From assembly GCA_910574455.1 (NCBI GenBank), contig CAJSYZ010000003.1, forward strand, positions 310,001 through 374,000: a stretch of 64,000 nucleotides of DNA, written 5' to 3'. Source of the DNA: Trichaptum fuscoviolaceum (lineage: Eukaryota; Basidiomycota; Agaricomycetes; Hymenochaetales; Trichaptaceae). Shown in pieces: positions 1 to 29,029 of this stretch (within the stretch, counting starts at the first letter, position 1; each line of letters starts with the position of its first letter). A model generated the notes under the pieces. That model was not told the DNA's origin and made no database searches. It saw only the letters and a program-made list of their open reading frames with translations. The position numbers were made by a program, and so were the translations under genes.

Positions 1-677
1 GGGTCAGGTCGATAGAGTGGAGGAGAGGGATGTTCATTTGGTCGAGGTGTATGTACAACATAAGGGGGTGAAACCGGGGTTGGAGGTTGTTGAGGCTCCG
101 AAGGCTGTTGGGGTGCGTTCTGAACATCGAACTCGTTCCGTTTTGTTGGATCGAAGATAGGCATGTTCTCTTGATCATGGTAGGCTGTGGGAAACTCGGG
201 TGGGGGTAGAGCAATTGGTGATGGGGGAGGGAGGGGTACCGGGTCGACAAATCGAGGAGGTCCTTCAAGGTGTCCATCGTCTAAAGTGTAAGCCAGTAAA
301 CGTTCAAATTCATACTCCGTGAACTCATCAGCTAATTGTCCCATCATCACTTGATTTAGTCGACGAATGATTACTTGAACAAAACGAAAGTTGAATCGCT
401 TATGTCCACCGCGATGCTGGTCGATGTAGTCTTGCAATTGGACGAGTAATTCATGCATGACATTGAGAGTGTAGACAGAGTGGTGAAAGGGGCGCTGAGT
501 CGAGTCGAGGACATATGGTAAGAGTCCACTGTGGAGGAGTGTGGCCGAGTACTGTTGACGAGTGGGTTCCGTGAGGGTAAACGCCTGATTAGGGAGGAGA
601 GATTCGGTCGGACAACGAGGAGGAGGGGGACTATTCTCCTTCGTGAGGGTTCCGCGCCGGGTTCGGATGGGCGGCAT
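1..677 (-). CDS. Element A ORF delta (post-pol, partial, runs off window)
   Basis: Open from ATG at 677 (MPPIRTRRGTL) to the window edge, 225 codons without a stop. It overlaps the end of gamma. It aligns throughout with element B delta (12569-13480): MPPIRTRRGTL with MPATRNTRHGL, TRQQYSATLLHSG with TRRQCAAALLHNG, HSVYT with HIVYT, and FTEYEFERLLAY with FTKYEFERLLSS, then a Pro-rich half with YHDQENMPIFD against YHEQAHVPIFD. Such co-linear conservation makes it a real gene. No known domain recognised. Confidence 0.7.
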   Translation of the reverse strand, partial: MPPIRTRRGTLTKENSPPPPRCPTESLLPNQAFTLTEPTRQQYSATLLHSGLLPYVLDSTQRPFHHSVYTLNVMHELLVQLQDYIDQHRGGHKRFNFRFVQVIIRRLNQVMMGQLADEFTEYEFERLLAYTLDDGHLEGPPRFVDPVPLPPPSPIALPPPEFPTAYHDQENMPIFDPTKRNEFDVQNAPQQPSEPQQPPTPVSPPYVVHTPRPNEHPSPPLYRPD

Positions 678-1314
678 GGTGAAGGGGACAATACAGGCAG
701 CACTCACAAGTACAGAAGGGGTCTCCTGGGTAGGGTGCGAAGTGAGCGTGCAAAGATCCCTTGTGGCGAATTCTCCGGGTGATGTAGGGCGTGTACGGAA
801 GGTCGAGGACGATTTTGAGACCGAGTAAGAGAGGGGGGGCGTGCTCTGGGTTGAAGAAAGTGTGCCTAAGCACTAACTTCACGAGTTCCGGGAAGGGTGA
901 GCAACGTCGAAGTCGCTCAACGTTAACGTGGGGGGTGAGCTTCGGATCGAACAGATAGTGTTGTACCAGATCAACAGGACCAAGAGGGCCGTACTGAGGG
1001 TGGGTGGGGCGTGGGCTTGGTGGAGGTGAAGGGTACTGGAGGGGTCCGGTGACAGTGTTGTGTCGGAGGAGGTAAGTGGTGGGCCAGTCGTCGGCGTTCC
1101 AACCGGGTTCGTCGGCTGGGAGGGACCAAAGATTGGAACCGAATTCCGAGTCGGCTGGTCCAGGCTGGAGTTCTTCTTCTTCTTCTTCGTCAAGGAAATC
1201 AAATTTTAAGGGGGAGGGATAGAAAAAGGGGGCAGTGGCCGCAAGACGTTGTTCAGGTGTTTCGGAAGGCGGTAGTTGATAAGTTGGAATGGGAGTGTTA
1301 AAATTGAAAGGCAT
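631..1314 (-). CDS. Element A ORF gamma (post-pol, Cys-rich C-terminus)
   Basis: The open frame extends from 1779, but the ATG at 1314 matches the start of gamma in element B (MPFNFNTP versus MPFNFDTP), giving about 227 residues. An acidic run and a Pro-rich linker precede a conserved domain: DLVQHYLFDP, LVLRHTFFNPEHA, then TRRIRHKG. It closes with the cysteine cluster CTCECCLYCPLHH, matching CICKCCRYCPVH in B. The cluster could bind metal; this is inference. The frame is +1 relative to beta in both copies. No known family recognised. Confidence 0.7.
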   Translation of the reverse strand: MPFNFNTPIPTYQLPPSETPEQRLAATAPFFYPSPLKFDFLDEEEEEELQPGPADSEFGSNLWSLPADEPGWNADDWPTTYLLRHNTVTGPLQYPSPPPSPRPTHPQYGPLGPVDLVQHYLFDPKLTPHVNVERLRRCSPFPELVKLVLRHTFFNPEHAPPLLLGLKIVLDLPYTPYITRRIRHKGSLHAHFAPYPGDPFCTCECCLYCPLHHAAHPNPARNPHEGE

Positions 1315-1357
1315 AGAAGGTAACGGAATAGTTCTGGGTCTGGGGGTAGGTGGGGAA

Positions 1358-2032
1358 TTAAACAAGGTCTGTCTGGTCGAGGTGGGACCTTTGTAAAAAT
1401 ATGGGAAATACGGATGCGAACGAAAATCGGGGGTTACTGTCGGCGTCGTCGTAGTCGGTTGAGGAAGAGGAGGAGGAGGATGAGGAGGAGTTGGTGGAGG
1501 CGTTGACAAGTGTGTCGTCGCTGTAATTCGTAGTGGTGAAGGTAAAGGGGGTGCTGGTTGCCAGAGGGGGGGAGAAGATGTCCCGGGGGTTGACTGTCGT
1601 TGGGATGGGGCTAGGATTGGGAGAAAAGGGTTCGAGGTCTGGCAGGGAGTCGATAGGACTGGGTGTCGGAGGTGGTGGAGTCTGCTGGGATTCCAGGGGG
1701 GTGCTAGAGGTGAGAGGTTGCTCTTGCTTGTGGTCACGAAGTTTTTCGATGGTGATTTTATAGAACTCGAGGAGTGCATACAGCTGGAGTGCGTATCTCA
1801 CTTTGGTCGGACCGGGGGCGTTTCGGATGCGGTTATTGATGTCTGGGATGAGTATGTCCAATGGTTCCTTATCAGGATGATCGTCCTTAAACACAAAATA
1901 GAACAGATGAGAATTGAGAATAATCTGTTCGTCATGCGATGACTGATTCGCTATCACTTGGAGTTCCGTCAGCTGGCGTTCCACTAAGCTGGAAATGAGA
2001 GGTGGGATCGACTCCTGTGATGAAGAACTCAT
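1358..2032 (-). CDS. Element A ORF beta (post-pol, unknown)
   Basis: 224 codons from ATG at 2032, in +1 phase relative to alpha and overlapping its end. The N-terminal 90 residues look helical and align with element B beta (HLFYFVF to HLFNFIH, then a PL-x2-LI pattern). A Pro/Ser-rich region follows with the shared motif LEPFSP, then a Ser run. No zinc motif, signal peptide or catalytic signature is visible. Preservation of the frame and motif in a diverged copy suggests selection. Function unknown. Confidence 0.65.
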   Translation of the reverse strand: MSSSSQESIPPLISSLVERQLTELQVIANQSSHDEQIILNSHLFYFVFKDDHPDKEPLDILIPDINNRIRNAPGPTKVRYALQLYALLEFYKITIEKLRDHKQEQPLTSSTPLESQQTPPPPTPSPIDSLPDLEPFSPNPSPIPTTVNPRDIFSPPLATSTPFTFTTTNYSDDTLVNASTNSSSSSSSSSSTDYDDADSNPRFSFASVFPIFLQRSHLDQTDLV

Positions 2033-2282
2033 TATTCGGCCCAAGGCCAACGTAAATATGAGTGCTTCGTCCTAGATAGTGTAGTTCTAGATCGTGTATC
2101 CAGAAGGTGGTGGGTCGGCGTTCTGGGAAGATGTACCAGATGAGAAAGAGATGGAAGAGTCGGAAAGAGGTGCGTGTGATGATAGGGTGGATTTGTAAAT
2201 GAGCTATCCAGATAAGAAGTCGGATAATGTCATAGAAGGTGTGCATGAGAATGGGGAGGAAGTGGGGTGGCTTCTGGTGCAT
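1932..2282 (-). CDS. Element A ORF alpha (post-pol, unknown)
   Basis: 116 codons from an ATG about 230 bases after the pol stop. The C-terminal half contains LGPNNEFFITG, which aligns with YGPHNQFIITS in the alpha frame of element B (11122-11532). Upstream, IHP aligns with IRP. In A the middle is strongly hydrophobic (two stretches around residues 17-30 and 37-55), whereas in B it is amphipathic, so a membrane role is not supported by conservation. It overlaps ORF beta by about 100 bases in another phase, an arrangement also present in B. No family recognised. Confidence 0.6.
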   Translation of the reverse strand: MHQKPPHFLPILMHTFYDIIRLLIWIAHLQIHPIITRTSFRLFHLFLIWYIFPERRPTTFWIHDLELHYLGRSTHIYVGLGPNNEFFITGVDPTSHFQLSGTPADGTPSDSESVIA

Positions 2283-2514
2283 TTATACGAAGTTTCTAGT
2301 TGATCATGTGGTCGTTGAATCAGTAGAAAGCTTCTGGGGCACGCTGGGGCATGTTGGTTCTTCGATATCAAACTTCGGGGGCAAGAAGTCTTGTTATCTA
2401 GCCGCAGTGAGGCAAGAAGTCTGAGGAGGGGGCTAAGAAGTTGTGCTTGTAGGTCCAAGGTGTCCAAATCGGGTTAAGTGGGTCGCGTTGTGTGTCCGCT
2501 TTATCCAAATCGGG

Positions 2515-5500
2515 CTACTTCAGCTTGTGCAACTCCTTGTATGCTGATAGCAGTTCTTCTGAATGCTTTAGTGCGTCTTCGGAGGCCCATGTGTTGTTGC
2601 TAGTCGGGTATCCTAACCATTTGATAAGGTACTTCCTTCGATTCGGGGCTCCTTTGTGCTGTAGAATTGCTTCTACTTCGAATTCTTCTTCTCCATCGAT
2701 AAGGTCAGGTGGAGGTTTTGAATAGGCTGGCCCATGTTCTACTGTCTCGGTGTTGGGAGTTAGAAGGGAGGCGTGGAATACAGGGTGAATCTTCCAAGTT
2801 CTAGGCAGTTCGAGTTCATAGACATTATCCCTGAGTTTTCGCTTGATAACGAAGGGTCCTTCGCGTTTTGATTGAAACTTTGAGGGTAGTCCGGTTCTTC
2901 GGAGGTTCCTTGCTTCTAACCATACAGATTGTCCAATGTATAGTGGCTTGAATTGGGTAGATTGAGCTTCGCGTTGATATTCCTGTGCGAGAGTTAGAGC
3001 TGCTTCTGCGTCATTTCGGAGTTCTAGTATCTTTGATAGTCGATTCTTGAGAGTCGGAATGTTGCTATCAAGTTCCGATTTTTCCGAGGGGAATGATGTT
3101 GGATCATATCCCATTAGTAGTCGAAAGGGGGTCTGTTCCGTGGTTGAATGTTTCCGATTGTTGTGTGTGAATTCCATGAGGGGGATGTATTTGCTCCAGA
3201 GGTGGGGGTGATTTGCTGCATAGATCCTGAAGTATGCTTCAATCTCCTGATTGCTGCGCTCTGCTTGTCCATCAGTCTGTGGGTGATATGCTGTAGACAT
3301 TGCCTGCTTGATGTGAAGCAATTGGCATAGCTGTCTGAACACCATAGATGCAAACTGTGGTCCTCGATCCGAGATTATTTTCCTTGGTAATCCGAATCGT
3401 CTGTACACATTATCGAAGTACAGTTGTGCAGTGTCTAGTGCAGTGATCGTCTTGGTGCATGGAGTGAGTACAATCGCCTTGGTGCAGTCATGGTCCACAA
3501 TAACACATATGCTGTCGAATCCATCAGATTCTGGGAGGTCTGTGATGAAATCGATGTTGACGGTTGCAAACGGGTAAGTGTCTTTATCTGCGATGATCGG
3601 GTTGAGTGGAGGTACAAGAGGGTGGTGGTTGATCTTCATCTGTTGACAGATAGCACATCCTTGGATGTATTTCGTCACGAACTGTTGCATTCTTGGCCAG
3701 TAATATGTTCGTCGAATTTGTTCCATTGTATTCGCTACTCCAGGGTGGTTTCGAGTCGGTAAGTCATGATATAGTCGTAAGAGGTTGCGCATGATTTCCG
3801 TGTTCCTTGGCACATAGATCTTGTTCCTGAAGTGTACCAGTTGATCCTTGATTGTGAAGTCGGTCATTTTGGGTTTGGTGAGTGGTAATTCTTTCTGTAG
3901 AAGGCTCATCGCTTCCTGAATATCTCCAGTTTCTTTGCGTATTTGGAGGTGAAGGTCATCGACATCGATGATGTTCCTGTCATCTTCTTCGGCTTCTTCA
4001 ATTCGAGTGGCTAGGAGTTCCATTTCTTTGAGAAAAACTTTCCCTGGTAGAAGTGTAACTTCGTTGCTAAGTTCTCCTTCCGTTTTAAAATGGTCCGCAC
4101 GTCGGGATAGGGCATCGGATTGGATCATGTGTTTTCCTGGTATGGCCTGTATCTTGTAATTGTATCTTGAGAGTTCATTCTGCCATCGAGCTTGTCGAGG
4201 GGTCAAGCGTTGGGGTTGTCTCCAATAAGTCAGATTCTTGTGGTCGCAATGAATCGTAACTGTATGCGGGCTTCCAAGTAGATAGTGTCTCCACATTTGG
4301 AGTGCTCGAATAATAGCAAATAATTCTCTGTCATATATTTGCCAGTTGCGTTGCGTCGGGTTGAGAGCTTGAGAGATATAACCTATGGGTTTGAGTTGAC
4401 CGTTTTCGTCATGTTGGCGTAGTGCTGCGCCGGTAGCTACGGCTGAGGCGTCCGTTTCAAGATAGAATGGTTTGTGTGGGTCGGGTTGCATAAGGAGGGG
4501 TTCCTTCGAAAAGAGTTTCTTGAGCGTCTGAAAAGCCTTTTCACATTTGTCTGTCCAGACAAAAGGTGTGTCCTTCCGTTTAAGTTGATCGAGTGGTCGG
4601 CATATAGTGGCATAGTTTGGAATGAATCTGCGATAGAAGTTGGTAAAACCTGTAAATGATCTGACGTCCTTGAGACATTTCGGAGTGGTCCAGTCAAGTA
4701 TTCCTTGTATCTTGGAGGGGTCTGTCTTGATCTTCGATTCCGAAATAATGTAACCGAGAAATGGTACTTCGAGTTGGTGAAATCGGCATTTCGCTGGTTT
4801 GACGTAGAGTTGATTGTCCTTTAGGATTTGAAAAACTTCTTTGGTGTTTTCAATGAGCTGCTTGAGAGTCGGGGCATGAATGAGTAGGTCGTCCATGTAG
4901 ACAATGACCTTGTTCTGGCGTATTTGCTCCGCTAGAATATCATTCATGAAGCGTTGAAAAACCGCAGGTGAGTTGCATAGACCGAAAAACATAACGGTTG
5001 GATGGTAGAGTTTCCTGTTGCATACAAAGGCTGCTTTCCATTGATCAGATTCCTTGATGCGAATGTTGTGATAACCTTGTCGGATATCGAGGGTAGTGAA
5101 GTATTTGGATCCTCGGAGTTGATCGAGTAGTTGCTGCGAGTTCGGCATAGGATATGCATCTTTGACTGTATGCGAGTTAAGGTATCGGTAGTCCTGTACT
5201 GGTCGGAGTGTTCCATCTTTCTTATCAATAAAGAAGAAAGGTGATGCCATTGGGGAGTTAGATTCCTTGATAAATCCTTTGTTGAGCAAGTCGTCAATTA
5301 ACGTAGTGAGAATTGGTTGTTGATGGTATGGGACCGGGTACGGTTTGTGAATTTTCGGCACAAAACTTGGTAACGTTTTGATCTCCATATCATAGGGTCG
5401 GGCAGGGGGGTAGGTTTGGATTTCATTCTCTGAGAAGATGTCCGCATATTCCAAATATTCGTCTGGAATATTAAGTTTCTCCTTTGGCTTTTGGTTTTGC

Positions 5501-5943
5501 TGTTCGAGTCGAGTAGAGACAGTGATCTTGTTGATAGTGATTGTGTCATCATTCCAGTTAATCTGGGGCTTTGCCTGCTTGAACCAAGGTAGTCCTAGAA
5601 TAACATCGTCGCTTGGAATGTGTGTCCGGTAAAAGATTGTCGAGGTTGAATGAGGGTGGGTGAGATTCAATCGAATCCGTTCTGAAACTGTTCCGTTCTT
5701 GTTCAGAGTTCCATCGGCATTGCTAACTTGTAAAGCTTTATCAAGTTTATGCATTTTGATGTTGAGCTTATCAACTAAGTCCGAGTTGATAAAGTTCAGT
5801 TGTGCTCCAGTGTCAAGAAGGGCATTGATAGTGATGAGGCGTCCGTTAACGAGTAATTTGACCGGGATTCGAAATGATGAGATGTTGCCATTTAGAACAA
5901 CAGTGTTGAGTTGAACCGGGTTAACCAACTCTGAGCTGTTCAA
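2515..5943 (-). CDS. pol: Element A Pol polyprotein (PR-RT-RH-INT-chromodomain)
   Basis: Uninterrupted frame of 1142 codons beginning with TTG, entered by -1 frameshift from gag rather than by its own start. Domains in order: aspartic protease with LLDTGAQ near residue 42; reverse transcriptase with YMDD in the palm, near residue 350; RNase H with LETDASAVATGAAL; integrase zinc-binding HHCC (YYWPRMQQFVTKYIQGC), then the DDE core with DFITDLP, ISDRGPQFAS and HPQTDGQAERSNQE; and a C-terminal chromodomain (FEVEAILQH...YLIKWLGYP). All key catalytic residues are present, so the enzyme set looks functional. It is a chromovirus, close to but distinct from the D and C/E/F families. Four more ORFs follow on the same strand. 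Confidence 0.95.
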   Translation of the reverse strand: MNSSELVNPVQLNTVVLNGNISSFRIPVKLLVNGRLITINALLDTGAQLNFINSDLVDKLNIKMHKLDKALQVSNADGTLNKNGTVSERIRLNLTHPHSTSTIFYRTHIPSDDVILGLPWFKQAKPQINWNDDTITINKITVSTRLEQQNQKPKEKLNIPDEYLEYADIFSENEIQTYPPARPYDMEIKTLPSFVPKIHKPYPVPYHQQPILTTLIDDLLNKGFIKESNSPMASPFFFIDKKDGTLRPVQDYRYLNSHTVKDAYPMPNSQQLLDQLRGSKYFTTLDIRQGYHNIRIKESDQWKAAFVCNRKLYHPTVMFFGLCNSPAVFQRFMNDILAEQIRQNKVIVYMDDLLIHAPTLKQLIENTKEVFQILKDNQLYVKPAKCRFHQLEVPFLGYIISESKIKTDPSKIQGILDWTTPKCLKDVRSFTGFTNFYRRFIPNYATICRPLDQLKRKDTPFVWTDKCEKAFQTLKKLFSKEPLLMQPDPHKPFYLETDASAVATGAALRQHDENGQLKPIGYISQALNPTQRNWQIYDRELFAIIRALQMWRHYLLGSPHTVTIHCDHKNLTYWRQPQRLTPRQARWQNELSRYNYKIQAIPGKHMIQSDALSRRADHFKTEGELSNEVTLLPGKVFLKEMELLATRIEEAEEDDRNIIDVDDLHLQIRKETGDIQEAMSLLQKELPLTKPKMTDFTIKDQLVHFRNKIYVPRNTEIMRNLLRLYHDLPTRNHPGVANTMEQIRRTYYWPRMQQFVTKYIQGCAICQQMKINHHPLVPPLNPIIADKDTYPFATVNIDFITDLPESDGFDSICVIVDHDCTKAIVLTPCTKTITALDTAQLYFDNVYRRFGLPRKIISDRGPQFASMVFRQLCQLLHIKQAMSTAYHPQTDGQAERSNQEIEAYFRIYAANHPHLWSKYIPLMEFTHNNRKHSTTEQTPFRLLMGYDPTSFPSEKSELDSNIPTLKNRLSKILELRNDAEAALTLAQEYQREAQSTQFKPLYIGQSVWLEARNLRRTGLPSKFQSKREGPFVIKRKLRDNVYELELPRTWKIHPVFHASLLTPNTETVEHGPAYSKPPPDLIDGEEEFEVEAILQHKGAPNRRKYLIKWLGYPTSNNTWASEDALKHSEELLSAYKELHKLK

Positions 5944-5949
5944 AAATTT
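5940..5949 (-). promoter_or_regulatory. Element A gag-pol -1 frameshift site
   Basis: The minus strand reads A AAT TTT TGA in the zinc-knuckle phase, a canonical X XXY YYZ heptamer followed at once by the gag stop. Slipping back one base gives AAA TTT TTG, which opens directly into pol. Confidence 0.8.
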
Positions 5950-7105
5950 GCAGCATCGTAGTTGCCATATTCATCGAAATCTTCATTGTCAAGTTCGTCC
6001 AAAGTGTTGAATAGTTCCTCTCGAGACTGATCATCAAGACTGGTGATAATCTCGTTGATCTGATATGCCTTGTCTTCCAGGGTGTCCGTTTCATCATAGT
6101 CATCGTCATCCACTTCCATTGCATTGATTCGGGGCTTGAATCTGCGTTTAGCACCTGGGAAGCGTCCTTGGGGTTTTCCTCTAGGTTTGAAAGAGTTCCT
6201 GGGACGAGATGGGCGTTTGGGACATTTGTTCGCCATATGACCGGGTTTTTCGCAATAAAACAAAGACCTTTGTCTCTAGCTTCCTTCTGCTTCTCTGGGG
6301 TGAGTTTGTTGAAATACATAGCATTGATATTGAATTCTTCCATCTTGTCTTCGAGTGAAGGTTCCGATTCCGGTTCCGGGTCGGAGTCAACTTCCATTTC
6401 ATGAATTCGATATCTGCGATTGAATCGGCGTTTCGGATAGCTGTACTTTTTCCTAAAGAATTGTGAAGGTTTCTGTTGATGAGGGGGATTCATCCTTTCG
6501 TATTGTAGACCAAATTTGAGGGCATTCTCGTAGTATGGGTCCATGAGGGGTTTGCCTGCTGTGTCCTTTGCCATATTGTCTTCAATTCGGATCAGTTCCC
6601 TTTGGATCGAAATTGGAAGGCCTTTCTTGAACAGATTGGTGAGAACTGTGGTGTCTTCGATTCCTGCATCATAAGCTAGTCGTTGGAATTCATAGACATA
6701 TTGATCCGTGCGCATGCCAGGGGTTTGCTTGAGTTTCATAAGTTCCTCATATGCGTCTGCAATGTAGTCTGCAGATATGAAGTGTTCACGAAAATCTTTC
6801 TTGAATTTTGCCCAAGTATAATCCCATGGTTTTCCGTCGGCTAGTTTCTTGTTTCCTTTGGTGATGATGCTGTTTATGAAGGTACCAGCTGATCCTAGGT
6901 TGCAGAATGTGGCTGCAAGTCGAACCTTGTCTTCATCTGTCGTGTAACCGGGTGTGAGAATGATGTAATTCTCCATGAGATCGAGCCATCGTCTAGCATC
7001 CTTGCGACTGCCATCGAAGTTGAATGGTTTATTGGCTCCATTTCTACGTTCTTCGATTTTGTCCGGGGGTCCGGATGTGTTGGCTGCTCCTCCAGAAGTT
7101 CCCAT
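5940..7105 (-). CDS. gag: Element A Gag (frame interrupted before the zinc knuckle)
   Basis: Starts at an ATG in strong context and encodes a capsid-type region with typical motifs of fungal Ty3 Gag (PFNFDGSRKDARRWLDLME early, then KKDFREHFISADYIADAYEE). The CCHC zinc knuckle, CEKPGHMANKC, is present but lies in the -1 phase (frame 5940-6263). The phase change falls at a run of four Ts near 6254-6258, where one base appears missing, and the 0-phase frame runs on as nonsense to 5921. The knuckle phase ends at TGA 5940, right after a slippery heptamer leading into pol. The break may be a true mutation, a homopolymer sequencing error, or an extra frameshift; the first two are more likely because no canonical heptamer is present there. 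Confidence 0.8.
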
Positions 7106-7974
7106 TGGTGGCGAGGAGGTGGAGGTGGCGGTGGTGGTGGCGGTTCAGGGGTCGGAGAATTAGACTTTTTGGGTTTGTAGTCAGGGTCGAAGGGATCGAC
7201 GTAGTCTAATTTGTCTTCTTCCTTCTTTGGAGGTTCTTCTTCCTGCTTCGGAGGTCTTTCTGGTGCTTTTCCTTTGTCTACAGATGGGGGTGTATCTGTT
7301 ACTCCTCTAAGCTTGAGGGCTTCGAGTCGATCTGTTAGAGACTTGACTGATCGCTTGGATTGCTCAATTTCAACGTCAACTTTAGGTTTGTCCGTGCCTA
7401 AGATGGAGGGTCCTGCAAGCGATTGGCTGTGTCTATGCCGGGTGGGGCTTGCGAGTAAAGGATGAGCAACTGGGGAAGTTTCTTCCTTGGGTAAGTGCGT
7501 AGAAGGTCGGGGAGTATTGGGGTCGGGTTGGGTGGTAGGAGGTGGGGTACTTGGGGGTGCAACTGGGGATGTGGCTGCAGTTAATGCGGTAGATTGTGAA
7601 GTGTTTGTGTCAAGCGGTGAAGGGGGGAGTAAGTGGGTAAGAGTAAGAGGGGATGGTCTGGACTGGGGTTGATTTAGTCCGTGTAACTCTTGGTAACGTT
7701 CCTCAGCGTCTTCCGGGTCAACTGCTTGATAATTTGTGTTGTATCTGCGGTAAAATTCTCCGGGGTGGTGTCGATATCTTTTTGGAATAGCTTTCCACTC
7801 TCTTCCTTGCTTGCTGAAGTAGATGTATTCGGAATGAAATCCTCGAGCTCTATACCAACAACGTTCCGAGTAGTCGAAGTATGAATTTTCCGGGGGGTAG
7901 GGAGGTAGTGATTCGAACGAGGTGTCAAGGTGAGGGGTGTCCGGTAGTTGTGATCGAGGTGCCAGAGTGTCTAA
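7106..7974 (-). other. Element A pre-gag open frame 3 (Gag N-terminal extension?)
   Basis: Open from just after a TGA at 7975-7977 into the gag region, with no ATG. The predicted product has an aromatic/basic front (YRRYNTNYQ), a long Pro/Thr/Ser linker, a heptad-like helix (VDVEIEQSKRSVKSLTDRL), a Lys/Glu-rich segment and a run of prolines directly before the gag ATG. The gag ATG lies in the -1 phase relative to this frame, with the change inside the proline-codon repeat. Slippage there may have separated a once continuous Gag, or Gag may simply start at 7105, whose context (ccaccaATGG) is good. Confidence 0.5.
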
Positions 7975-8621
7975 TCAGTAGTTTGGATTCCGTTTGTCTG
8001 ATACTGTGCCGGAATCGGGGGTACTGGGGGAATAGGGGGGGCTTGTCGAATGGGACGGTTCGGAGGTGAAATGAGTGGAATGTCACTTGGGGATAGGCTA
8101 GGTTGACAACCGCAGCGATTGATATAGGTTTGAACGTCTTCTTCAACGTCAGGCCAATAGCAAACGTAATCTAGATGTTCCCTAGTGGTTTGGACTGTGT
8201 AATGATAGTTGGTTTCTGGATGGATGTGTGCTGCGTATATAAGATCGTTTCGAAGGGCTTGGTTGCTTCCAACGTAGGCTCGTCCTTCTGTCCAAATTAA
8301 GTCTACCCTTAGTTTCCAATTGGTGGGGAATCGACGGTTTCGGATAAGAAATGCCAATGATGTGATTACTGAATCTCCGTCGTAGCTTTTCTTGATTCGT
8401 TGATCTAGTCCGTTGAGTTTCAGAAGCCTATAGTTCTCTGCAATTTCTGTTTCGTCTGATACACCGGGTTGGATAGGGTGAAGTCGACTAGTTCTGGGGA
8501 TGATTAGATCCGCCAGGTTGCCTATTTGGTTGATAAATAGAGCTACTAAGTCTTCTTCTGATCCTTCTGAGCTTGGATCGGAATGGTCCAGGGGTGGGTG
8601 TGTTGAGATGGATAGGTGAAC
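7971..8621 (-). other. Element A pre-gag open frame 2, H2C2-like zinc-binding segment
   Basis: Open from after a TAG at 8622-8624 to TAG at 7971, about 216 codons, with no ATG at all; the most obvious internal start is TTG at 8357. The first part is acidic with a helical look (SSEGSEEDLVALF). The second part contains YWPDVEEDVQTYINRCGC, which closely resembles the integrase zinc-binding region in this element's own pol (YYWPRMQQFVTKYIQGC). Histidines lie upstream at similar spacing, but the last pair is C-x-C rather than C-x2-C. The tail is Pro-rich. It overlaps frame 1 in the +1 phase and frame 3 in the -1 phase. A role in nucleic-acid binding is inference. Confidence 0.5.
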
Positions 8622-9117
8622 CTAGAAGGGGGATGGGAGTTCCTTCGCGTTTGATCTCTTGTTTGATCGGAGGGGGAGGGGGTGTATGCTGTTCCTGGAT
8701 CCTTTGAGTAACAGGTGTTACAGGTGGTAATTGCCTGTTATATGTTCCTATTTCGCTTGTCCAATAGTGTTGAGGATCTTCGAAGTTAGATGATGCTGAG
8801 CTAAGATAGGTTTCCCTTGTGAATTCTTGTCCGAGTCGAGGGGCTGAGTATGAAGTAACAAATGGATTGGTTACTATGCTTTCTCGAGCTTCGGATGGGG
8901 GTTCTGCCTTGGTTGTCTGCTCAGTATCGGAGTATTCGAGTTCGGATGGGGTGTGGGGTGGGGTAGAGTTGGTGGGGATGTCTGTGATGCGGATGGGGTC
9001 GAAGATAAAAATCTCCTGCACGTCTTCCAACAATCTTTCCGTATGATTGGCGACTCGTATTAAGACCTTCAGGTTGGGCACTTCCTTGGGTGATCTCTTC
9101 CCTTGAGCTACTTGTTG
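8488..9117 (-). other. Element A pre-gag open frame 1 (no ATG)
   Basis: Open from just after a TAA at 9118-9120 to a TAG at 8488, about 209 codons with no in-frame ATG near the front (the first usable start is GTG at 9081). The product begins VPNLKVLIRVANHTERLLED, then becomes Pro/Thr/Ser-rich and ends in a basic stretch with several RR pairs. Its 3' end overlaps pre-gag frame 2. I do not recognise it. It could be the front of a Gag precursor split by indels, or a separate accessory frame reached by frameshifting. Confidence 0.5.
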
Positions 9118-9669: not shown

Positions 9670-9680
9670 AAGTCAATCCT
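9670..9680 (-). promoter_or_regulatory. Element A primer-binding site (self-priming type)
   Basis: Three bases inside the 5' LTR the minus strand reads AGGATTGACTT. This is the exact reverse complement of AAGTCAATCCT in the same LTR (9855-9865), just downstream of the TATA box where the transcript should start. No tRNA-like TGG primer site was seen. This is the arrangement known for Tf1, where the mRNA 5' end folds back as primer. Confidence 0.8.
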
Positions 9681-9683: not shown

Positions 9684-10228
9684 TGTTACGTTCACGGCTT
9701 CGGAAGACTTATCACGGAAATGATAAGTGACAAAAGCGTTGTTTGTGAACAAACAAGTGGTGAGATAAGAGTGGGCGCTTTAACGAGGCTCTCTTAAGCT
9801 CGGAAGTCCGTGGGTGAACAGAGTCTTTGGCACGATGGTGTGAAAGACTATAGGAGGATTGACTTAAGTGTCATCCAAAGGCCTATGTACGGGGTTTATA
9901 TACTACAGAGGGAGAAACATAAATAGAACGCGCTTCTGGGGCTAGCTGGGGCTAACTGGGGCTAACTGGGGCTAACTGGGGCTAACTAGGGCTAACTGTG
10001 AAACAGGGGAAATGGGGCTAACTGGGGCTACGTAGGGCTAACTGGGGCTATGGTAAAGCGAAGGGGCAAAGGAAACAAAGAGGCAGTAAAAGGGGGCTAC
10101 CTGGGGCACCGAAGGTTAAAGGTAAAAAGGTTAAATGGTAAAGTCCGAGAGACAAAGGTAAGCGTAGCCTAATCGGGTTACGTGAGGTAAACAAAGGTAA
10201 ACATGGTCCGTATGCTTGATGCATAACA
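9684..10228 (-). repeat. 5' LTR of element A (545 bp)
   Basis: Read on the minus strand it begins TGTTATGCATCAAG and ends CGTGAACGTAACA, the TG...CA ends expected of an LTR. Its start and last third match the 3' LTR of element B (13647-14188). A TATA-like box (TAGTATATAAA on the minus strand, near 9896-9905) lies about 40 nt upstream of the putative self-primer AAGTCAATCCT (9855-9865). The U3 core holds 10-bp tandem repeats (9936-10054) that are absent from the B LTR. Confidence 0.88.
9936..10054. repeat. 10-bp tandem repeat in the element A U3
   Basis: The plus strand shows about nine copies of a GCTAACTGGG unit, the later ones imperfect and interrupted. They lie in the U3 of the A LTR, upstream of its TATA box, so they could act as promoter elements or be neutral slippage. 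Confidence 0.85.
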
Positions 10229-10230
10229 GA

Positions 10231-11076
10231 CCCCAATTTGCATCAACACTATTCAGACAGCTATGCCGCTTACTGCACATCAAGCAGGCTATGTCTACAG
10301 CATATCACCCACAAACTGATGGACAAGCAGAACGAACGAACCAGGAGATCGAAGCATACTTCCGAATTTACGCAGCAAACCACCCCCAACATTGGTCACG
10401 ATACATACCAATGATGGAATTCACTCACAACAATCGCAAGCATTCCACCACAGAGCAGACCCCTTTCCGATTACTCATGGGATACGACCCAACATCATTT
10501 CCTACGGAAAAATCCGAGATCGACAGTAACATCCCCACACTCCAAACTCGCTTAATCAAGATATTGGAACTCCGAACCGAAGCCGAAGCAGCTCTAACTC
10601 TCGCACAAGAATTCCAGCGTGAGACACAGGAATCACACTTCCAGCCCTTGGAAGAAGGACAAAGTGTATGGTTAGAAGCCAGGAACCTCAGACGCACCAG
10701 ACTACCCTCGAAATTCCAATCTAAACGAGAAGGACCCTTTACAATCATCAAGAAGCTCAGGGACAATGTCTATCAACTCGATCTTCCAGAGCATTGGAAA
10801 ATACACCCAGTATTTCATGCTTCTCTTCTCACTCCCCACAAGGAAACGGACGAACATGGACCATCTTACACACGACCACCACCTGACCTTATTGAAGGAG
10901 AAGAAGAATTTGAAGTCGAAGCGATACTCAATCACCGAGGACCACCAAGGAAACGCGAATATCTCGTCAAATGGCTAGGATACCCGACATCAGAGAACCA
11001 ATGGATATTGGAACAATCACTGGAGAATACTCAGGAACTTCTATCGGAATACAAGAAGGCACACCGGATCAAATGA
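10231..11076 (+). pseudogene. pol: Element B Pol, C-terminal part (integrase-chromodomain)
   Basis: 282 codons without interruption, starting at PQFAS of the integrase core. It contains HPQTDGQAERTNQE with the catalytic Glu, the GPFTIIKKLRDNVYQL region typical of the integrase C-terminal part, and a chromodomain (FEVEAILNHRG...YLVKWLGYPTSENQW). Upstream codons were separated by the insertion of A; the first codons of the frame at 10216-10230 are LTR sequence. The frame itself has no stops, so B was probably intact before A landed. Confidence 0.9.
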
Positions 11077-11121
11077 CCTCCCGGTCATCTGTCCAATTAC
11101 CCCATCCGGAACAAGTACACT

Positions 11122-11532
11122 ATGCCATCTGTCAAAATCCTCCGATACTCCGAGTGTAATCTCAACTACCACCCGGAATCTAGACAACCCCAGAAGTATT
11201 TCATCGAACCCAGAAGCTCCCCTACCCACCAGGCCATGATCAAACCAGCCGATCTCGCTAACGTTTGTGCATACATCCTCTCACTTGACATCCGCCCTGA
11301 AGTCAAGGATCTTGCGGAACTACTCCTTATCGAAGCATTCAAACGCATCGACCAAGGCCCAGGACCCTATCAGCCTTTCAACCAACGCTTCGTGTTCTCA
11401 CACGCATATCGAAGAGACACCCCGGAAATTTCAGTACGATATGGGCCGCACAATCAGTTCATTATCACATCAACGCCGCAATATCAACCACCGCCGCCCT
11501 ACTCCGATACCATCTCCACAACCCCTTCGTAA
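11122..11532 (+). CDS. Element B ORF alpha (post-pol, unknown)
   Basis: 136 codons from ATG, 45 bases after the pol stop. Two predicted helices (PADLANVCAYILSLDIRP, then LAELLLIEAFKRI) precede YGPHNQFIITS, the segment shared with element A alpha. The tail is Pro/Ser-rich. The end overlaps ORF beta by 92 bases in the +1 phase, as in A. Function unknown. Confidence 0.65.
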   Translation: MPSVKILRYSECNLNYHPESRQPQKYFIEPRSSPTHQAMIKPADLANVCAYILSLDIRPEVKDLAELLLIEAFKRIDQGPGPYQPFNQRFVFSHAYRRDTPEISVRYGPHNQFIITSTPQYQPPPPYSDTISTTPS

Positions 11533-12058
11533 TGACCCTCCCCCTCCCACAGAAATAAGCAAAGAACAAATTCTTAACAACCTTCGCACACTAGCAGCAG
11601 AAACTCCGACCAACCGTCAACCCACACTCATTTTCCACCTATTCAATTTCATTCATCAACAGGAAGAACCCAACACTCCACCGCTCAATCACCTCATCAA
11701 TTTCATCGATACTCTTCTTACCCACGCGACTCCATTACACCAGGCACACCTTTCGATAGGACTCTATATACTAATTCAAATGGTCAAGTCAAATGACCTC
11801 GAAGGATCTGTACAACTTCCAAACGGATTTAGATTCATTCACAGGCAACCGGCACCCGCTCGAACTTCTAGCTCCAACAGTTCCACATCCCCTCCGCCCT
11901 TGGAACCCTTTTCTCCTGCATATAGCCCGACCACCTCCACGGAATCCCTGACCAGTCACACCACAGACAACCCCGATTCTGACAAAGAGAATATCCCCAC
12001 TCGACATGCCATTCAACTTCGACACCCCCAATCCAACATTCGAAGTCCCTCCCTTTGA
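11441..12058 (+). CDS. Element B ORF beta (post-pol, unknown)
   Basis: 205 codons from ATG at 11441 (MGRTISSLSHQRR). The open frame continues upstream to 11267, but this ATG sits at the point equivalent to the A copy start. Helical core with HLFNFIH and PLNHLINFIDTLL, then a Ser/Pro linker with LEPFSP, also seen in A. The end overlaps gamma. No recognised family. Confidence 0.65.
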   Translation: MGRTISSLSHQRRNINHRRPTPIPSPQPLRNDPPPPTEISKEQILNNLRTLAAETPTNRQPTLIFHLFNFIHQQEEPNTPPLNHLINFIDTLLTHATPLHQAHLSIGLYILIQMVKSNDLEGSVQLPNGFRFIHRQPAPARTSSSNSSTSPPPLEPFSPAYSPTTSTESLTSHTTDNPDSDKENIPTRHAIQLRHPQSNIRSPSL

Positions 12059-12557
12059 CGCCGAGGAACACCTTGCCGCCACTGACCCCGGACCCTTACT
12101 ACCTGTTGAGGATATTGATCCCCTCTGGGTAACAGGCTGGGGCAATCACGCAAATGACTGGCACAATGGCATATGGCACCCGCAACTGACACCCGTCCAC
12201 CCCGAGAACGACTACCCCTCTCCCCCTCCCTCTCCTACACTTCCCCCTTTGAGTCCTCTCGACCTTGTCCGAGAGTATATCTTTGACCCGGCCCACACTG
12301 ATCTCGTCAACATCCGCCGCCTCAAGACTCTCAACCCCCACCCCCAGCTCACCACTCTAGTCCTCCGCCGCACCTTCTTCACCCCTGAATACGCCGTCCC
12401 GATTCTACAAGCCCTCCACATCCTCCTCGAGCTCCCTTACGTCCCCTGGATAGGCCGCCGCATCCGCCACGCAGGAACAGCGCAGCAACACTTTGTGGCG
12501 TACGACAAAGACCCGATCTGCATATGCAAGTGTTGCAGGTACTGCCCGGTTCACTAG
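12006..12557 (+). CDS. Element B ORF gamma (post-pol, Cys-rich C-terminus)
   Basis: 183 codons from ATG, overlapping the end of beta by about 50 bases in the +1 phase. After a Pro-rich front it has DLVREYIFDP, LVLRRTFFTPEYA and GRRIRHAG. It ends CICKCCRYCPVH, eight residues or fewer from the stop, like the A copy. The C-terminal 100 residues are the best conserved part of the module. Confidence 0.72.
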   Translation: MPFNFDTPNPTFEVPPFDAEEHLAATDPGPLLPVEDIDPLWVTGWGNHANDWHNGIWHPQLTPVHPENDYPSPPPSPTLPPLSPLDLVREYIFDPAHTDLVNIRRLKTLNPHPQLTTLVLRRTFFTPEYAVPILQALHILLELPYVPWIGRRIRHAGTAQQHFVAYDKDPICICKCCRYCPVH

Positions 12558-12568
12558 AACTAGTCCCC

Positions 12569-13480
12569 ATGCCCGCTACTCGCAACACCCGGCACGGACT
12601 CTCTGGTCGCCTCTATTACACTTCGACACAGAAACGAGTGCACCCAAACCGACAGAGATACAGAGAAGGCCAACTCCTCCCCCCTCTATGCGACCAACTC
12701 CTCCCCGGACTCCCCTTCATCCAGACCTCGCAGACCCGTCGACAGTGTGCAGCCGCTCTTCTCCACAACGGCAAACTTCGCGACCTCACCAAGAATACCA
12801 GCATCAGTCCACTCCCGCACATCGTCTACACTACGCAACAGATGTATGGCCACTTGTGCAAAATGCTTGATATCTTGGAGAACAACCGACTCAGGAAGCA
12901 GAAGATTGATTCTTATGAGTATCAGGAGCTAGTACATCGCATGAATCAAGTTCTTATTACTCAACTCGAGAACCAGTTCACCAAGTACGAATTCGAGCGC
13001 CTCCTCTCATCGGAAATCAAAGATGGACAGGTACACTTACCAGATGACCCGGAACCACAGCCTATGACGACTCCCTCCCCTCTCGAGCTACCCCCGCTGG
13101 CTGCGTCCGATGCATACCATGAGCAAGCGCATGTGCCGATCTTCGACCTCGATCGACTCAGCAACTTCGAATCCGCTCCGCCATTGCCCAGCCCTCGTCA
13201 ACAGCTCCACTTACCGACAGAGGAAGAACTTCAGGTGATCAATCAGCAAGCCCAGGACGTTCCCCTTCCTGAACTACCTCACATGACTCCGCCCAACGTC
13301 GTTATCCAACCATCTTCGCCAGTTTATGTGGTCAACACTCCCCGATCCGAGGACTTTACTTCGCCCGAGACATATGCCCCCATCGACTGGACTAATCCAC
13401 AGTCTGTTTCTTTATATCATACCTTCCTTAATAACTTTAATTTTTCGCAGACGATTTCATCCAATGTACCCAGCGCTTAA
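12569..13480 (+). CDS. Element B ORF delta (post-pol, unknown)
   Basis: 303 codons from ATG at 12569 (MPATRNTRHGL), just after the gamma stop; the frame is open a little further upstream to 12524. An N-terminal region with TRRQCAAALLHNG and a helical part (YEYQELVHRMNQVLITQLE, then FTKYEFERLLSS) is followed by an acidic, Pro-rich half with PVYVVNTPR, which matches PPYVVHTPR in A. No metal-binding or catalytic motif seen. It is the last gene before the 3' LTR. Confidence 0.72.
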   Translation: MPATRNTRHGLSGRLYYTSTQKRVHPNRQRYREGQLLPPLCDQLLPGLPFIQTSQTRRQCAAALLHNGKLRDLTKNTSISPLPHIVYTTQQMYGHLCKMLDILENNRLRKQKIDSYEYQELVHRMNQVLITQLENQFTKYEFERLLSSEIKDGQVHLPDDPEPQPMTTPSPLELPPLAASDAYHEQAHVPIFDLDRLSNFESAPPLPSPRQQLHLPTEEELQVINQQAQDVPLPELPHMTPPNVVIQPSSPVYVVNTPRSEDFTSPETYAPIDWTNPQSVSLYHTFLNNFNFSQTISSNVPSA

Positions 13481-13646
13481 CCCCCTTATTGGTCTTAACT
13501 TGACCCTATAGCGACTGATATTTATCTCTCTGTTACGCTTTTACTTATTGATCTTAACTTGATCCTATAGCGTTGTACCTTTCTTTGAAATTCTCGCATT
13601 CGCATTCTTATGCTACTACGGAATTTCAATCTTAGTGACAGGGTAT
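13481..13646 (+). repeat. Element B 3' untranslated stretch with direct repeat
   Basis: Between delta and the 3' LTR a segment of the form CTTATTGRTCTTAACTTGA followed by YCCTATAGCG occurs twice (near 13483 and 13543), about 60 bases apart. A clear polypurine tract before the LTR is not obvious (GTGACAGGGTAT). Confidence 0.65.
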
Positions 13647-14188
13647 TGTTACGCATCAAGCTGCTTACCCTTGTTTACACATTGTTTATGTTCCCCCCCC
13701 CTCATCTTGTTCTCTCACCCTTTCTACCTGCATGTGCGTACACACATTGCATCATTCTTTCATTATCGACTCCACACTCCGATGGCTCCACTTGCTCCGA
13801 GAGCCCCAGGACCTTCCACTCCGATGATACATCATTCTACTCCACTCTACTCCACCTATGTTCCGATCTGACATCATCCTCCATTAATTAGAGCCACTAT
13901 GACGGACTCACTCCACTTCTGACCCGCGATGATGTAGTTTCATTCCTTGCTCCACTCTACTGTTCTCTGTAGTATATAAGGCCATGTACATAGCGCCCCA
14001 GGATGACACTTAAGTCAATCCTCCTATAGTCTTTTACAATCACGTACCAAAGACTCTGTTCACCCACGACTTCCGGTATAGAGACCCTCACAAAGCGGAC
14101 CCTCTATACTGTACTTGCTACTTCACCCAACAACGCTTTGGTCACTTATCATTTCCGTGATAAGTCCATCGAAGCCGTGAACGTAACA
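13647..14188 (+). repeat. 3' LTR of element B (542 bp)
   Basis: Begins TGTTACGCATCAAG and ends GTGAACGTAACA. It shares its first about 35 bases and its TATA/R/U5 third (GTAGTATATAA, then GACACTTAAGTCAATCCTCC) with the LTR of A. Most of U3 is unrelated to A. Confidence 0.88.
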
Positions 14189-15250
14189 TCGTTGGTAATC
14201 GACTACCATGCGCAAGGTTCCGTCCTTCTTCTTGATAAAGAAGACGGGAGCCGCTGCAGGGGATTTCGAAGGTCGTATGTACCCTTTGCGCAGGTTTTCG
14301 TCAACGAATTCGCAAAGGGCGTCGCGTTCGGCTGGGGCCAAGGGATAGATTTTGCTGTACGGGGGAACCTTCCCGGGTTCTAAATCTATGGCGTGATCAT
14401 ACGGCTTGCGCAGTGGAAGCCTTTCGGATTCAACTTTCGAGAAAACGTCGGCAAACTCACGAAATTCGGGGGGAACTAGTTCCTCGAAGGTTTTCTCGCC
14501 TTCCTTCACCGCTGACTTCTCAGCGATGGCCTGGGAGTGGGTGTACGAGGCGGCAATTTTGTACGCGAAATGGTCGTCCGTCGTGACGAAGTAGGATTCG
14601 GCGTCGTGGTACTGGTCCCAATATTTTTCTGAGTACCGAAATCCCGGTGGGACAGCTTCCCATTCGGCCTGGGTCCTGTCGGGCCCCCAGGGGGTCTCGA
14701 CTTCTTCTGCTATGGCGAGGCGGGGAAGCGGGACCAGGCGTTGCTGGTTGTCACAATGGGGCGGGCAGCGGTTGAGATCGACCACATCGTTGGTCCAGTC
14801 AATGGTTGGGTTATGGTGCCGCAACCAGTCGATCCCCATGATAATATCGTCGTCGCCAATATCCGCGACGGCCATGGTCAATTGTTCTAAGTGTCCCTTC
14901 ATCTCGACGTTGAGGACTACTTCCTTGGTGATGCGTCCAATCGCGTTCGGGGAATTGTCCGCGTTGCGCAAAAGTATCGGGATTACCAAGTCCCGGGTCT
15001 GGAGTCCGTGTCGCGAAACGTAGCGGGAATTTATGAAAGTTCCCGACGCACTGCTGTCTAACATTACTGTGGCTAAGGCATCCATCTTTCCGTCGCTAAC
15101 CTGTACCGGGAACTTCAAATGTCGTCGAAGACGACGGTCTATTGTAGAGATGGTTAAATACAAGGGACCATTATTAAGAGAGTTCTTTGGCCGCAAGGGC
15201 GGTTGGGTCATATAGGGCGCGACTGAGCAATACGACCCTACTGAAAATCC
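14189..15250 (-). pseudogene. pol: Element C Pol, N-terminal part (protease, start of RT)
   Basis: Starts in the -1 phase at the slippery site at 15244-15250. It encodes a retropepsin-type protease region with MLDSSASGTF, where E and F have MLDSGASGTF. The Gly-to-Ser change hits the active-site D-S-G and would be expected to harm the protease. It continues through the linker to RT start motifs (SPAAAPVFFIKKKDGTLRM) and is cut at VVDY by element B. Confidence 0.88.
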
Positions 15251-16035
15251 GCTGGGGGCGGGGCTTTGGGATTGTGAACGTTCTTGGCGGCGGGCGTCAT
15301 GGCGGCAAATGCGTTCTGTAGCACGGACTGCTGCACATTCTGGACGTACTGTTCCGCCATACGTTTGAGCGTTTCTTCGAACGACTGGAGCGCGGGGGGC
15401 GATGGGCTCGACGGGGACGTGGATTTCGTAGCCTTTAGGTTTCGGGATGGCGGTCGCGTTGGGCAATCGCTCACCAAATGGTCTTTCTCTCCGCAGTAGT
15501 AGCATAGTCCCTTACTCCTGCGTTCCCGGCGCACCCGGTCAATCTCCATTGCGTTGGGATCCTTCGTCGAGCTTGCGCCCGCAGTCGGGATTGTACGCGG
15601 AGCTGAACTAGTGGTGCCGGGATTGCTTCGGGGCGTAGCTGCTGGCTTTGATACTGGTCCATAGGCGTGTGCGAGCCTTAGCTTCTCGTCCGTCTCGGAA
15701 ACCCAATTGACGTAGGCATTGAATTTCATATCCTTCGCCTCTGTGCTGGCGATGTGCTGGCGAACCTGGTCTTTGAGTCCCTTCCGGAACATGTCGAGGT
15801 AGATGACATCCGTCGTTGCGTCCTTGGGCCACCCGGTGAGGGCTTGGAGGGCACGGAATTGCAACGCAAACTTGGCGACCGTTCCTGTCTGGCGTAGGCG
15901 CATCAGCTTGTCGGCTGCGGCTTTGTCTGCATCGATTTCCCCGTAAGAGGCGCGAAGGGCGGTGAACAGGGCCTCCAGGCTGGCGGCTTCTGGCGGTGTC
16001 GGGATGTCCTGGAGTCGATCTAGAATGGGTCGTGT
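15238..16035 (-). pseudogene. gag: Element C Gag, 5'-truncated
   Basis: Matches residues from RPILDRLQD to the C-terminus of intact Gag in F, including the zinc knuckle CYYCGEKDHLVSDC and the tail ending PPPADFQ. About the first 135 residues of Gag are missing. The open frame continues upstream to 16176 only by chance through foreign sequence. Confidence 0.88.
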
Positions 16036-23153: not shown

Positions 23154-23972
23154 TGTTACGACCGTCGGGAATTGTAGCGGGAAACAGTTTCGGGAAACTG
23201 GAATTTGCGACAAGAACCCGCGTTCGGGAATCTGGATTCGCGACTGGGAACGAGCGTGGGAATTCAGGCGGAGGAACGCGCGGGATTCTATCCAGGCGCG
23301 TCGCGGGATTCTCAAGGCCAGCTAGGACTCTTCACTGCTTTGAACGTCAAGTAAGCGGATCCCTAAGGAAGCACTCCACAAGTAAGTATTGCGCAACTAA
23401 CTACACAGGAGAAAAGAGAGAGATCGCACCTAAGGAAGCACTCCACAAGAGGTCAAAAGTGGGGTGCTCCTTACGATGCCTACAGCTATTTATCTACTTC
23501 GTAAAGACTGTATAGTTAATCTACGCTAAGTGTCCTTGCGCAATGCGCACCTATCTACTACAAACGATACATGCTACGACCGCACTGCTAGGCATGTCTA
23601 TCCCGTCTCTCCAGATGGCTACGGCCTGTCCGTGGACGTCAGCGTCCGGTCCGGGGCCGCGACTAGCCAGACTAGGTATGCCAGACTGTTGCAGGTCGTC
23701 ACCTTGAGGTACTAACGGATTAATGAGCGTATGTTGATAAGTGAATGTACGTGTGCCGTGGCGGGTCGTCGTAAATGAGTGTGTGTATGCGTGCATGGTT
23801 GCCGGGACGGTGGTGCGGGATAAGTCACGTGAGCATGGGATCGTGCGATTCGGGAATGAGGTTTCGCGCGGGGAATCCAATGGCGGGATTCTCCCCGCGG
23901 GTTTGTCTGCTCATGTCGGGATCCTTGGCGGGAAAGTGCGGGAAATGAGAAAAGGAGCCCGGGATCTCGACA
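23154..23972 (-). repeat. 3' LTR of element E (819 bp)
   Basis: On the minus strand it runs from TGTCGAGATC to CGGTCGTAACA. It shares GAATTTGCG and GCGGAGGAACG (plus-strand reading) with the E 5' LTR near one end, but matches element F over its other half. The last codons of pol lie inside it. Confidence 0.92.
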
Positions 23973-28953: not shown

Positions 28954-29029
28954 CGCGGGTCGGCGGTACGGGTGCGGGGGTAGAAGTAAAGAGCGTGAGG
29001 GTGTCGAGTCCGAGCGGCGGTGAGCCAGG

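Follow-up and report, generated by a model that had tools for sequence, protein, structure and literature searches.

Which proteins does a retrotransposon make when its pol gene is followed by four further reading frames, and how could so many frames be expressed from one element? This question is raised by a stretch of 64,000 nucleotides of the Trichaptum fuscoviolaceum genome (59 Mb, 12 contigs), positions 310001-374000 of contig 3 and hereafter called the window, at whose left end two related long terminal repeat (LTR) retrotransposons, elements A and B, carry the frames alpha, beta, gamma and delta between pol and the 3' LTR. An earlier interpretation made from the window alone (the sequence-only reading) took these frames for a new accessory module of a retrotransposon. 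That the frames are coding, conserved, unrecognised and travel as a unit is borne out here; the description was nevertheless incomplete, as three conserved frames without AUG, named L1, L2 and L3 and not mentioned in that reading, also precede gag. The extra frames are conserved, with selection that is strong on L2, L3, gamma and delta, clear on alpha and beta when B is compared with a third family, C, and modest on L1, and AUG is kept out of the region between the inferred RNA 5' end and the start codon of gag. The reading preferred here, with a probability of roughly 0.72, is that of a self-priming Ty3/gypsy chromovirus with the order LTR-L1-L2-L3/Gag-(-1 frameshift) Pol-alpha-beta-gamma-delta-LTR, in which the leader frames would start at CUG codons, gag would be reached by leaky scanning, the 3' module would be translated from a separate mRNA and its products would have accessory roles. 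It is also judged probable, if held a little less firmly, that conserved CUGs in an AUG-purged 2.7-kb leader give rise to three accessory products, including an extended Gag, and that these are combined with a swappable four-gene 3' cassette.

The four-frame module downstream of pol

The frames of the module are the following.

1932-2282, minus strand: alpha of A, with a conserved core from the Met at 2246
1358-2032, minus strand: beta of A
631-1314, minus strand: gamma of A, with an MPFNF start and a C-terminal CxCxCCxYCPxH cluster
1-677, minus strand: delta of A, part inside the window, continuing to position -63
11236-11532, plus strand: alpha of B, from the conserved Met
11441-12058, plus strand: beta of B
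12006-12557, plus strand: gamma of B
12569-13480, plus strand: delta of B

The presence of four frames in the same order between pol and the 3' LTR, as claimed by the sequence-only reading, was confirmed in both copies, and the frames overlap. For the module of A, placed by that reading at 1-2282, the order held and the left limit did not, as delta spans window position 677 to -63 (246 codons). Gamma of A starts at the conserved Met of MPFNF (window 1314) and not in the open frame upstream. In codon alignments of A with B, amino-acid identity is 34% for alpha, 27% for beta, 54% for gamma and 40% for delta, and the Cys cluster at the C-terminus of gamma (CxCxCCxYCPxH), which probably binds zinc, is invariant.

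Selection on all four proteins, which had been proposed from shared motifs, is supported by the comparison of B with C, in which the ratio of nonsynonymous to synonymous substitution (dN/dS, NG86) is 0.19 for alpha, 0.18 for beta, 0.11 for gamma and 0.21 for delta, and substitutions are in excess at third codon positions (positions 1/2/3: alpha 17/7/29, beta 12/10/34, gamma 14/9/60, delta 75/49/132). Polymorphism among 14 copies of A shows strong constraint on gamma (w 0.11) and delta (w 0.16), with values above 1 in their other frames. The beta stretch of family A presents a particular case, since its +1 frame, which is the frame of gamma, has a lower w (0.55, P 0.033) than beta itself (0.89). 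The gamma frame is open upstream of gamma across this stretch (1358-2032, minus strand), and an N-terminally extended gamma is possible there.

The module is found in three related chromovirus families of this genome, A, B and C. Match counts across the genome, for module DNA as for the gamma and delta proteins, are lower bounds. The module DNA of A matched at least 35 places, at least 22 of them over virtually the full length, and that of B, for which the best 40 of 70 candidates were scored, gave at least 41 matches (22 virtually full-length at 97-100% identity, 15 at 81%, which represent family C, and four partial). The proteins matched at least 72 times for delta and at least 75 times for gamma, some copies matching more than once. 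All four frames are unbroken in nine of 14 A-copy 3' halves. The sequence-only reading had named a dN/dS near 1 in all four frames, or the absence of the frames from most other members, as outcomes that would speak against it; because dN/dS is far below 1 between B and C and the frames are kept in other members, neither was found. Beyond the A family, the sequence read comprises two parts of one C copy and the B copy of the window, and wider conclusions on family B rest on pattern searches.

The 3' module looks like a cassette that is exchangeable between families. Identity of B with C is about 97-99% in the first 4 kb of the elements and returns to this level near the delta stop, continuing into the LTR (96% in the last 47-base segment); between the end of pol and the delta stop it is 53-87%, apart from two beta segments with 94-96%. 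The segment at the end of pol shows 90% identity; the comparison covered these two parts of one C copy. The reverse mosaic occurs in an A-family copy (L033/L022, C12:1610501-1619000), of which the leader is 86% identical to A and the module 97% (C12:1618914).

Searches of Pfam, NCBIfam and PHROGs gave no significant match for the four module proteins, and neither did the PDB sequences for beta, gamma and delta, the three that were run. Among 5.77 billion proteins, gamma has three relatives (single-sequence query) and delta two (profile; best 8000 word-sharing candidates scored). P0001 is 87% identical to gamma of B, P0002 and P0003 are 54% identical to it, and P0004 resembles A itself (by eye). 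Since P0002, P0003 and, by eye, P0005 are unlike A, B and C, the module is probably present in further families. A scan of IMG/VR for gamma relatives gave 38 pattern matches, none of which was confirmed. Paralogy among gamma, delta and beta was considered, and profile comparisons gave no sign of it.

A coding leader without AUG

The features of A that bear on the leader, all on the minus strand, are these.

9896-9902, minus strand: TATA box of the LTR promoter (TATATAA)
9855-9865, minus strand: inferred RNA 5' end, 11 nucleotides complementary to the primer-binding site (PBS) (element positions 363-373)
9670-9680, minus strand: putative self-priming PBS of the Tf1 type (element positions 548-558)
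8488-9072, minus strand: L1, without ATG, proposed CUG start at 9072
7971-8516, minus strand: L2, without ATG, proposed CUG start at 8516 (AACCTGGC), with an Integrase_H2C2 domain (Pfam, E 9.2e-8)
6895-7965, minus strand: L3, AUG-less N-terminal extension of Gag, proposed CUG start at 7965 (ACTCTGGC)
5921-7105, minus strand: gag from its AUG (Retrotrans_gag), the first AUG of the inferred RNA
5940-6275, minus strand: zinc-knuckle end of gag (zf-CCHC, E 0.0012, just below the Pfam cut-off)
5943-5949, minus strand: slippery heptamer A_AAT_TTT directly before the gag stop, also present in B

In self-priming of the Tf1 type, the PBS pairs with the 5' end of the element's own RNA. In A, 11 nucleotides at element positions 363-373, just 3' of the TATA box, are the exact complement of the PBS at 548-558; the LTR motif is also present in B and C, and the PBS in B. 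From this complementarity and the analogy with Tf1, the RNA 5' end is placed at 363-373 of A. Between this point and the gag ATG there is not a single ATG in A (363-3122, gag ATG at 3123) or in C (365-3241, gag ATG at 3242), the ATGs in the LTR of A (positions 4, 24, 308 and 354) being all upstream of the inferred start. In the 2.6 kb from PBS to gag of A (546-3122), dinucleotide shuffles contain 19.5 ATGs on average (standard deviation 3.5, minimum 12 in 200 shuffles); CTG, GTG, ACG and CAT are about as frequent as expected and TTG is twice as frequent. ATG is lacking from 13 of the 14 full-length A-family leaders, from the partial leader of L036 and from the C copy. None of 161 recent substitution events in A leaders creates an ATG, against 5.0 expected (P 0.0075). 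An argument that the leader is unstructured was dropped, since the RNA of L1-L3 is just slightly less folded (minimum free energy per nucleotide -0.133) than that of gag (-0.169) or pol (-0.147).

Within this leader, L1 has 209 open codons and L2 has 216 in A and 199 in B and C, and L3 is continuous with gag in B (638 open codons) and in four of the six A-family copies examined (678). The L3/gag frame is broken in the other two copies and in the window copy, whose gag is interrupted before the zinc knuckle. Amino-acid identity between A and B is just 31-40% in L1-L3, yet the proteins align along their lengths. Polymorphism among 13 copies gives w values of 0.53 for L1 (P 0.02), 0.30 for L2 and 0.22 for L3 (for both L2 and L3, 0 of 300 simulations), and w exceeds 1 in both other frames of each. 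L2 probably goes back to the capture or duplication of an integrase N-terminal domain: the Integrase_H2C2 match of A has a counterpart in C, below the cut-off (7.2e-4), and L2 of A and C has C-x-C where this domain usually has C-x2-C. One match to L2 was found in the protein collection, 97% identical to that of A. At the other end of gag, in the gag-pol overlap, the gag frame of both A and B ends in a UGA that follows immediately on A_AAT_TTT. A -1 slip at this heptamer, a probable frameshift site, leads into pol.

Candidate starts of the leader frames are found where conservation begins. Each frame has, at its N-terminal edge of conservation, exactly one aligned leucine pair that is CTG in both A and B, in the contexts AACCTGA (L1), AA[CT]CTGGCG (L2) and A[CA][TA]CTGGC (L3), and gag has no such pair. 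CTG makes up 4-15% of the leucine codons of the leader frames, and the joint chance of the shared CTGs, with codons treated as independent, is 1.3e-7, or 4.5e-5 if they are allowed anywhere in each frame. AnnCTGG stands at the starts of L2 and L3 in 14 of 14 full-length A-family leaders as well as in B and C, and in A-family leaders it occurs only at position 25 (a nine-codon frame), about 1166 (L2) and about 1717 (L3), with one extra site in L029. At B/C places searched with the three start bases left free, CTG is found in 37 of 37 and 38 of 38 cases. Of the non-AUG starts, CUG has the highest efficiency in many systems, and non-AUG starts normally require a strong context (as discussed in PMC3542737); near-cognate starts that extend a reading frame are documented in filamentous fungi (according to the account in PMC5487733).

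How the frames may be expressed, and what they may do

In the preferred model, ribosomes would scan from the cap through the AUG-free leader. Most of them would pass on to the gag AUG, a minority would initiate at the conserved CUGs, yielding L1, L2 and a Gag with an N-terminal extension (L3-Gag), and a -1 frameshift at the end of gag would lead to pol. The 3' module lies beyond the 108 ATGs of gag-pol, and its translation is therefore likely to use an mRNA of its own, either spliced or internally initiated. The products of the module would most likely be accessory proteins acting on the host (silencing or assembly), and the module would be kept by selection and exchanged between families as a cassette.

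Several observations weigh against this model. With respect to the starts, AnnCTGG occurs elsewhere too (two further sites in B and C, the short one in A, the extra one in L029), and the B/C copies are close relatives, so that their agreement on CTG is by itself weak evidence. The CTG of L1 is followed by A at +4 where the other two have G, and A at -3, with any base at +4, is no rarity among CTGs (7-10 in each full A-family leader, 13-14 in C and B); the context of the L1 start alone is therefore not distinctive, and the selection on L1 is modest. With respect to AUG depletion, a diverged A-family copy (L033) has two leader ATGs, and the B copy of the window has three although its LTRs are without substitution, so recent insertions can carry some ATGs; those of B are private to this copy (one of 39, one of 39 and one of 37 matched places). 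The mutation null used for the 161 events also under-predicts TGA (12 observed, 5.8 predicted) and TTG (10 and 3.9), and is hence imperfect and rough. With respect to the 3' module, no selection was detectable within family A on alpha (15 events, P 0.31) or beta (w 0.89, P 0.43), and its accessory role has no support from any homology. Finally, no TATA box or splice signal common to A, B and C was found for the module, and ATG numbers in it are close to expectation (9 and about 12.6 expected from the pol stop to the delta start in A, and 11 and 13.5 in B and 10 and 10.1 in C in the stretches counted), so that these observations support neither leaky scanning nor splicing there.

Two ideas on the expression of the module were set aside. 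A promoter is suggested by a TATAAA near alpha in A only. Leaky scanning is suggested by the lack of any ATG between the gamma and delta starts of A (0 in 636 nucleotides, 3.0 expected); it was not adopted because B and C have several ATGs between these starts. The coding strand has a strong bias of C over G, and the 3' module is C-rich yet not AUG-purged.

The compact arrangement of the module brings in a further possibility, namely that all four frames lie on one subgenomic mRNA and are translated by termination and reinitiation at neighbouring stop and start codons. Every ATG lies at most about 100 nucleotides from the preceding stop in A, B and C, but the distances vary between the three (alpha-beta overlaps of 92-101 nucleotides, beta-gamma from a 53-nucleotide overlap to a 43-nucleotide gap, gamma-delta from a 47-nucleotide overlap to an 11-nucleotide gap), and compact overlapping genes need no coupling. 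Reinitiation is retained as a tentative possibility, not as the favoured one. For the leader, it could be proposed that splicing joins L1-L3 to an AUG from an upstream or host exon and that the unspliced RNA does no more than avoid AUG. There is a GTAAGT donor at element position 665 of A, and splicing is known for some LTR elements; this donor pattern was however not found in the stretch of B scanned, the region from the inferred RNA start to gag has no ATG in A and C, and the conserved CTGs are located at the starts of the frames, which makes this explanation unlikely.

A second alternative for the leader reduces the three starts to one non-AUG start, from which L1, L2 and L3 would be made as a polyprotein through recoding (a frameshift from L1 to L2 and readthrough from L2 to L3). 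It draws on the overlap of L1 and L2, on the shared frame of L2 and L3 in B and on the apparent use of a -1 frameshift by the element for gag-pol, but in A L2 and L3 are in different frames, and a conserved CTG at every separate start would be unneeded; it is considered decidedly unlikely. An env-like or particle-release function of the 3' module, to which its location between pol and the 3' LTR and a hydrophobic stretch in alpha of A (seen by eye) could point, is judged very unlikely, since this stretch is absent from alpha of B and C (by eye in the alignment) and the module has no Pfam env match, Pfam being the search made and no dedicated env, transmembrane or signal-peptide predictor having been used. 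That the open frames are mere artefacts of a G-poor, C-rich strand with few stops is hardly credible, for although the C-over-G bias is strong and many other open frames exist (up to about 150 codons), substitution in the named frames is codon-position-specific with dN/dS far below 1, and w is above 1 in the alternative frames of L1-L3, gag, gamma and delta. An artefact is thereby refuted for gamma, delta, L2 and L3; the case against it is weakest for alpha and beta within family A.

Structure of the elements and their surroundings

The remaining features of the two elements inside the window are as follows.

9684-10228, minus strand: 5' LTR of A, 545 bp, with the target-site duplication (TSD) GGGTC in element orientation
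2515-5970, minus strand: pol of A, with protease, reverse transcriptase, RNase H, integrase and chromodomain (Pfam)
10229-11076, plus strand: C-terminal part of the pol of B, broken by the insertion of A
13647-14188, plus strand: 3' LTR of B (LTR pair of B: 542-bp match, 0 mismatches, 1 gap)

Element A, on the minus strand and 11,031 bp long, begins with its 5' LTR at window 9684-10228 and crosses the left window edge, beyond which its 3' LTR lies; its two LTRs differ by 0 mismatches and 3 gap openings. As expected of a chromovirus, it has LTRs (545 bp) and a short TSD (5 bp, GGGTC). The pol of A contains, in order, Asp_protease_2 (5.1e-9), RVT_1 (1.2e-36), RT_RNaseH (3.4e-35), rve (8.6e-11) and Chromo (3e-12), and this protease-reverse transcriptase-RNase H-integrase order with a C-terminal chromodomain identifies A as a chromovirus (Ty3/gypsy). 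Members of the Caulimoviridae are not known to have LTRs or integrase, both of which A has. A is an antisense insertion inside the pol of B, a nesting that the sequence-only reading did not mention: the 3' part of B occupies window 10229-14188 and its 5' part, including 5' LTR and leader, lies left of the 3' LTR of A. Over the stretch inside the window, the pol genes of B and A share 76% DNA identity.

In nine of 13 A-family LTR pairs there is no substitution (the 14th copy is without a 5' LTR), and the elements are, on this count, taken to have been recently active. The window's B copy is recently inserted but defective; its 5' half (L039/L009, C3:302224-309195) has in-frame stops near the end of gag in addition to the three private leader ATGs. 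In the LTR of A, 5' of the promoter (window 9936-10050), there are about 12 tandem copies of a 10-bp unit (CTGGGGCTAA). The base preceding TGTTATG is T in 13 of 13 other A-family copies, the 3' LTR match is one base short in 12 of these 13, and their LTR/TSD boundary is off by one base relative to the TG...CA form of the window copy.

Other repeats surround these elements. The 3' LTR of B adjoins a third LTR-type element, of which 14189-16034 is 98% identical to 26696-28541 and 61056-62901, and the A copies L010, L020 and L024 likewise lie in or near pieces of this element. A further LTR-type repeat family is seen at 23275-29476 and 57632-63822 (four 300-nucleotide copies, 100% identical, in two pairs about 5.9 kb apart), and a pair of diverged direct-repeat blocks at 30948-34877 and 41183-43766 (82-97% identical, spacing 8.9-10.2 kb).

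Implications and comparison with known systems

If the preferred reading is true, retrotransposons can evolve retrovirus-like sets of accessory genes without a recognisable env, so that fungi would possess a 'complex' retroelement. A single message of this kind would also be scanned by ribosomes over about 2.7 kb of coding sequence, with initiation at three CUG codons. Non-AUG initiation would then be directly testable in natural, deeply diverged homologous sequences, and the exchange of cassettes gives a way into the question of what transposons gain from accessory proteins. It would also follow that AUG-based annotation hides transposon proteins such as L1-L3, of which gene callers that allow other starts can catch pieces (e.g., the near-identical L2 in the protein collection).

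Among known retrotransposons, Tf1-type elements show the same complementarity between RNA 5' end and PBS, which amounts to 11 nucleotides here. Tf1 has a single open reading frame (ORF) and is not known to have a long coding leader, unlike the present elements. Fungal chromoviruses (e.g., the basidiomycete clades MarY1, Laccy1/2 and Tcn2) have the same LTRs, gag and protease-reverse transcriptase-RNase H-integrase-chromodomain order in the descriptions of PMC2864245, compared with which the present elements have seven additional conserved frames, of which three lack AUG and precede gag. The view of the sequence-only reading that chromoviruses normally have nothing, or at most one frame, after pol roughly agrees with this survey of fungal Gypsy elements, in whose account the majority have one or two ORFs and a figure legend gives an 'add. 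ORF', its function unknown, for some (PMC2864245). LTR elements of plants and animals are also known to have captured ORFs in the region after pol (PMC6431247, PMC5408684), to which alpha-delta can be likened in position; a four-ORF cassette together with a coding leader is not described in the accounts consulted. A search of the open-licence PMC literature brought up no LTR retrotransposon whose coding leader lacks AUG or that uses several CUG starts, which is not proof of absence.

The closest parallels to the leader are found in viruses, and they concern mechanism and not kinship. In rice tungro bacilliform virus (RTBV) and badnaviruses, as the account in PMC5902531 has it, the first ORF starts at AUU and about 900 nucleotides without internal AUGs aid leaky scanning to later ORFs, so that a non-AUG start, an AUG-free stretch and leaky scanning are combined as proposed here. 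The same account describes RTBV as a DNA pararetrovirus of plants that has a single non-AUG start and uses ribosome shunting (PMC5902531). Long AUG-free ORFs upstream of the main AUG, as in RTBV-like leaky scanning, are seen in the present elements. The present elements differ in their about 2.76 kb free of AUG, in three proposed CUG starts and in being LTR retrotransposons with integrase. Murine leukemia virus (MLV) is a retrovirus, whereas the elements described here are LTR retrotransposons, and it is not known to have further ORFs in an AUG-free kilobase leader. What the two would share is the extended Gag, as the CUG-initiated N-terminal extension of MLV, in frame with its AUG-initiated Gag according to the account in PMC3542737, resembles the proposed L3-Gag.

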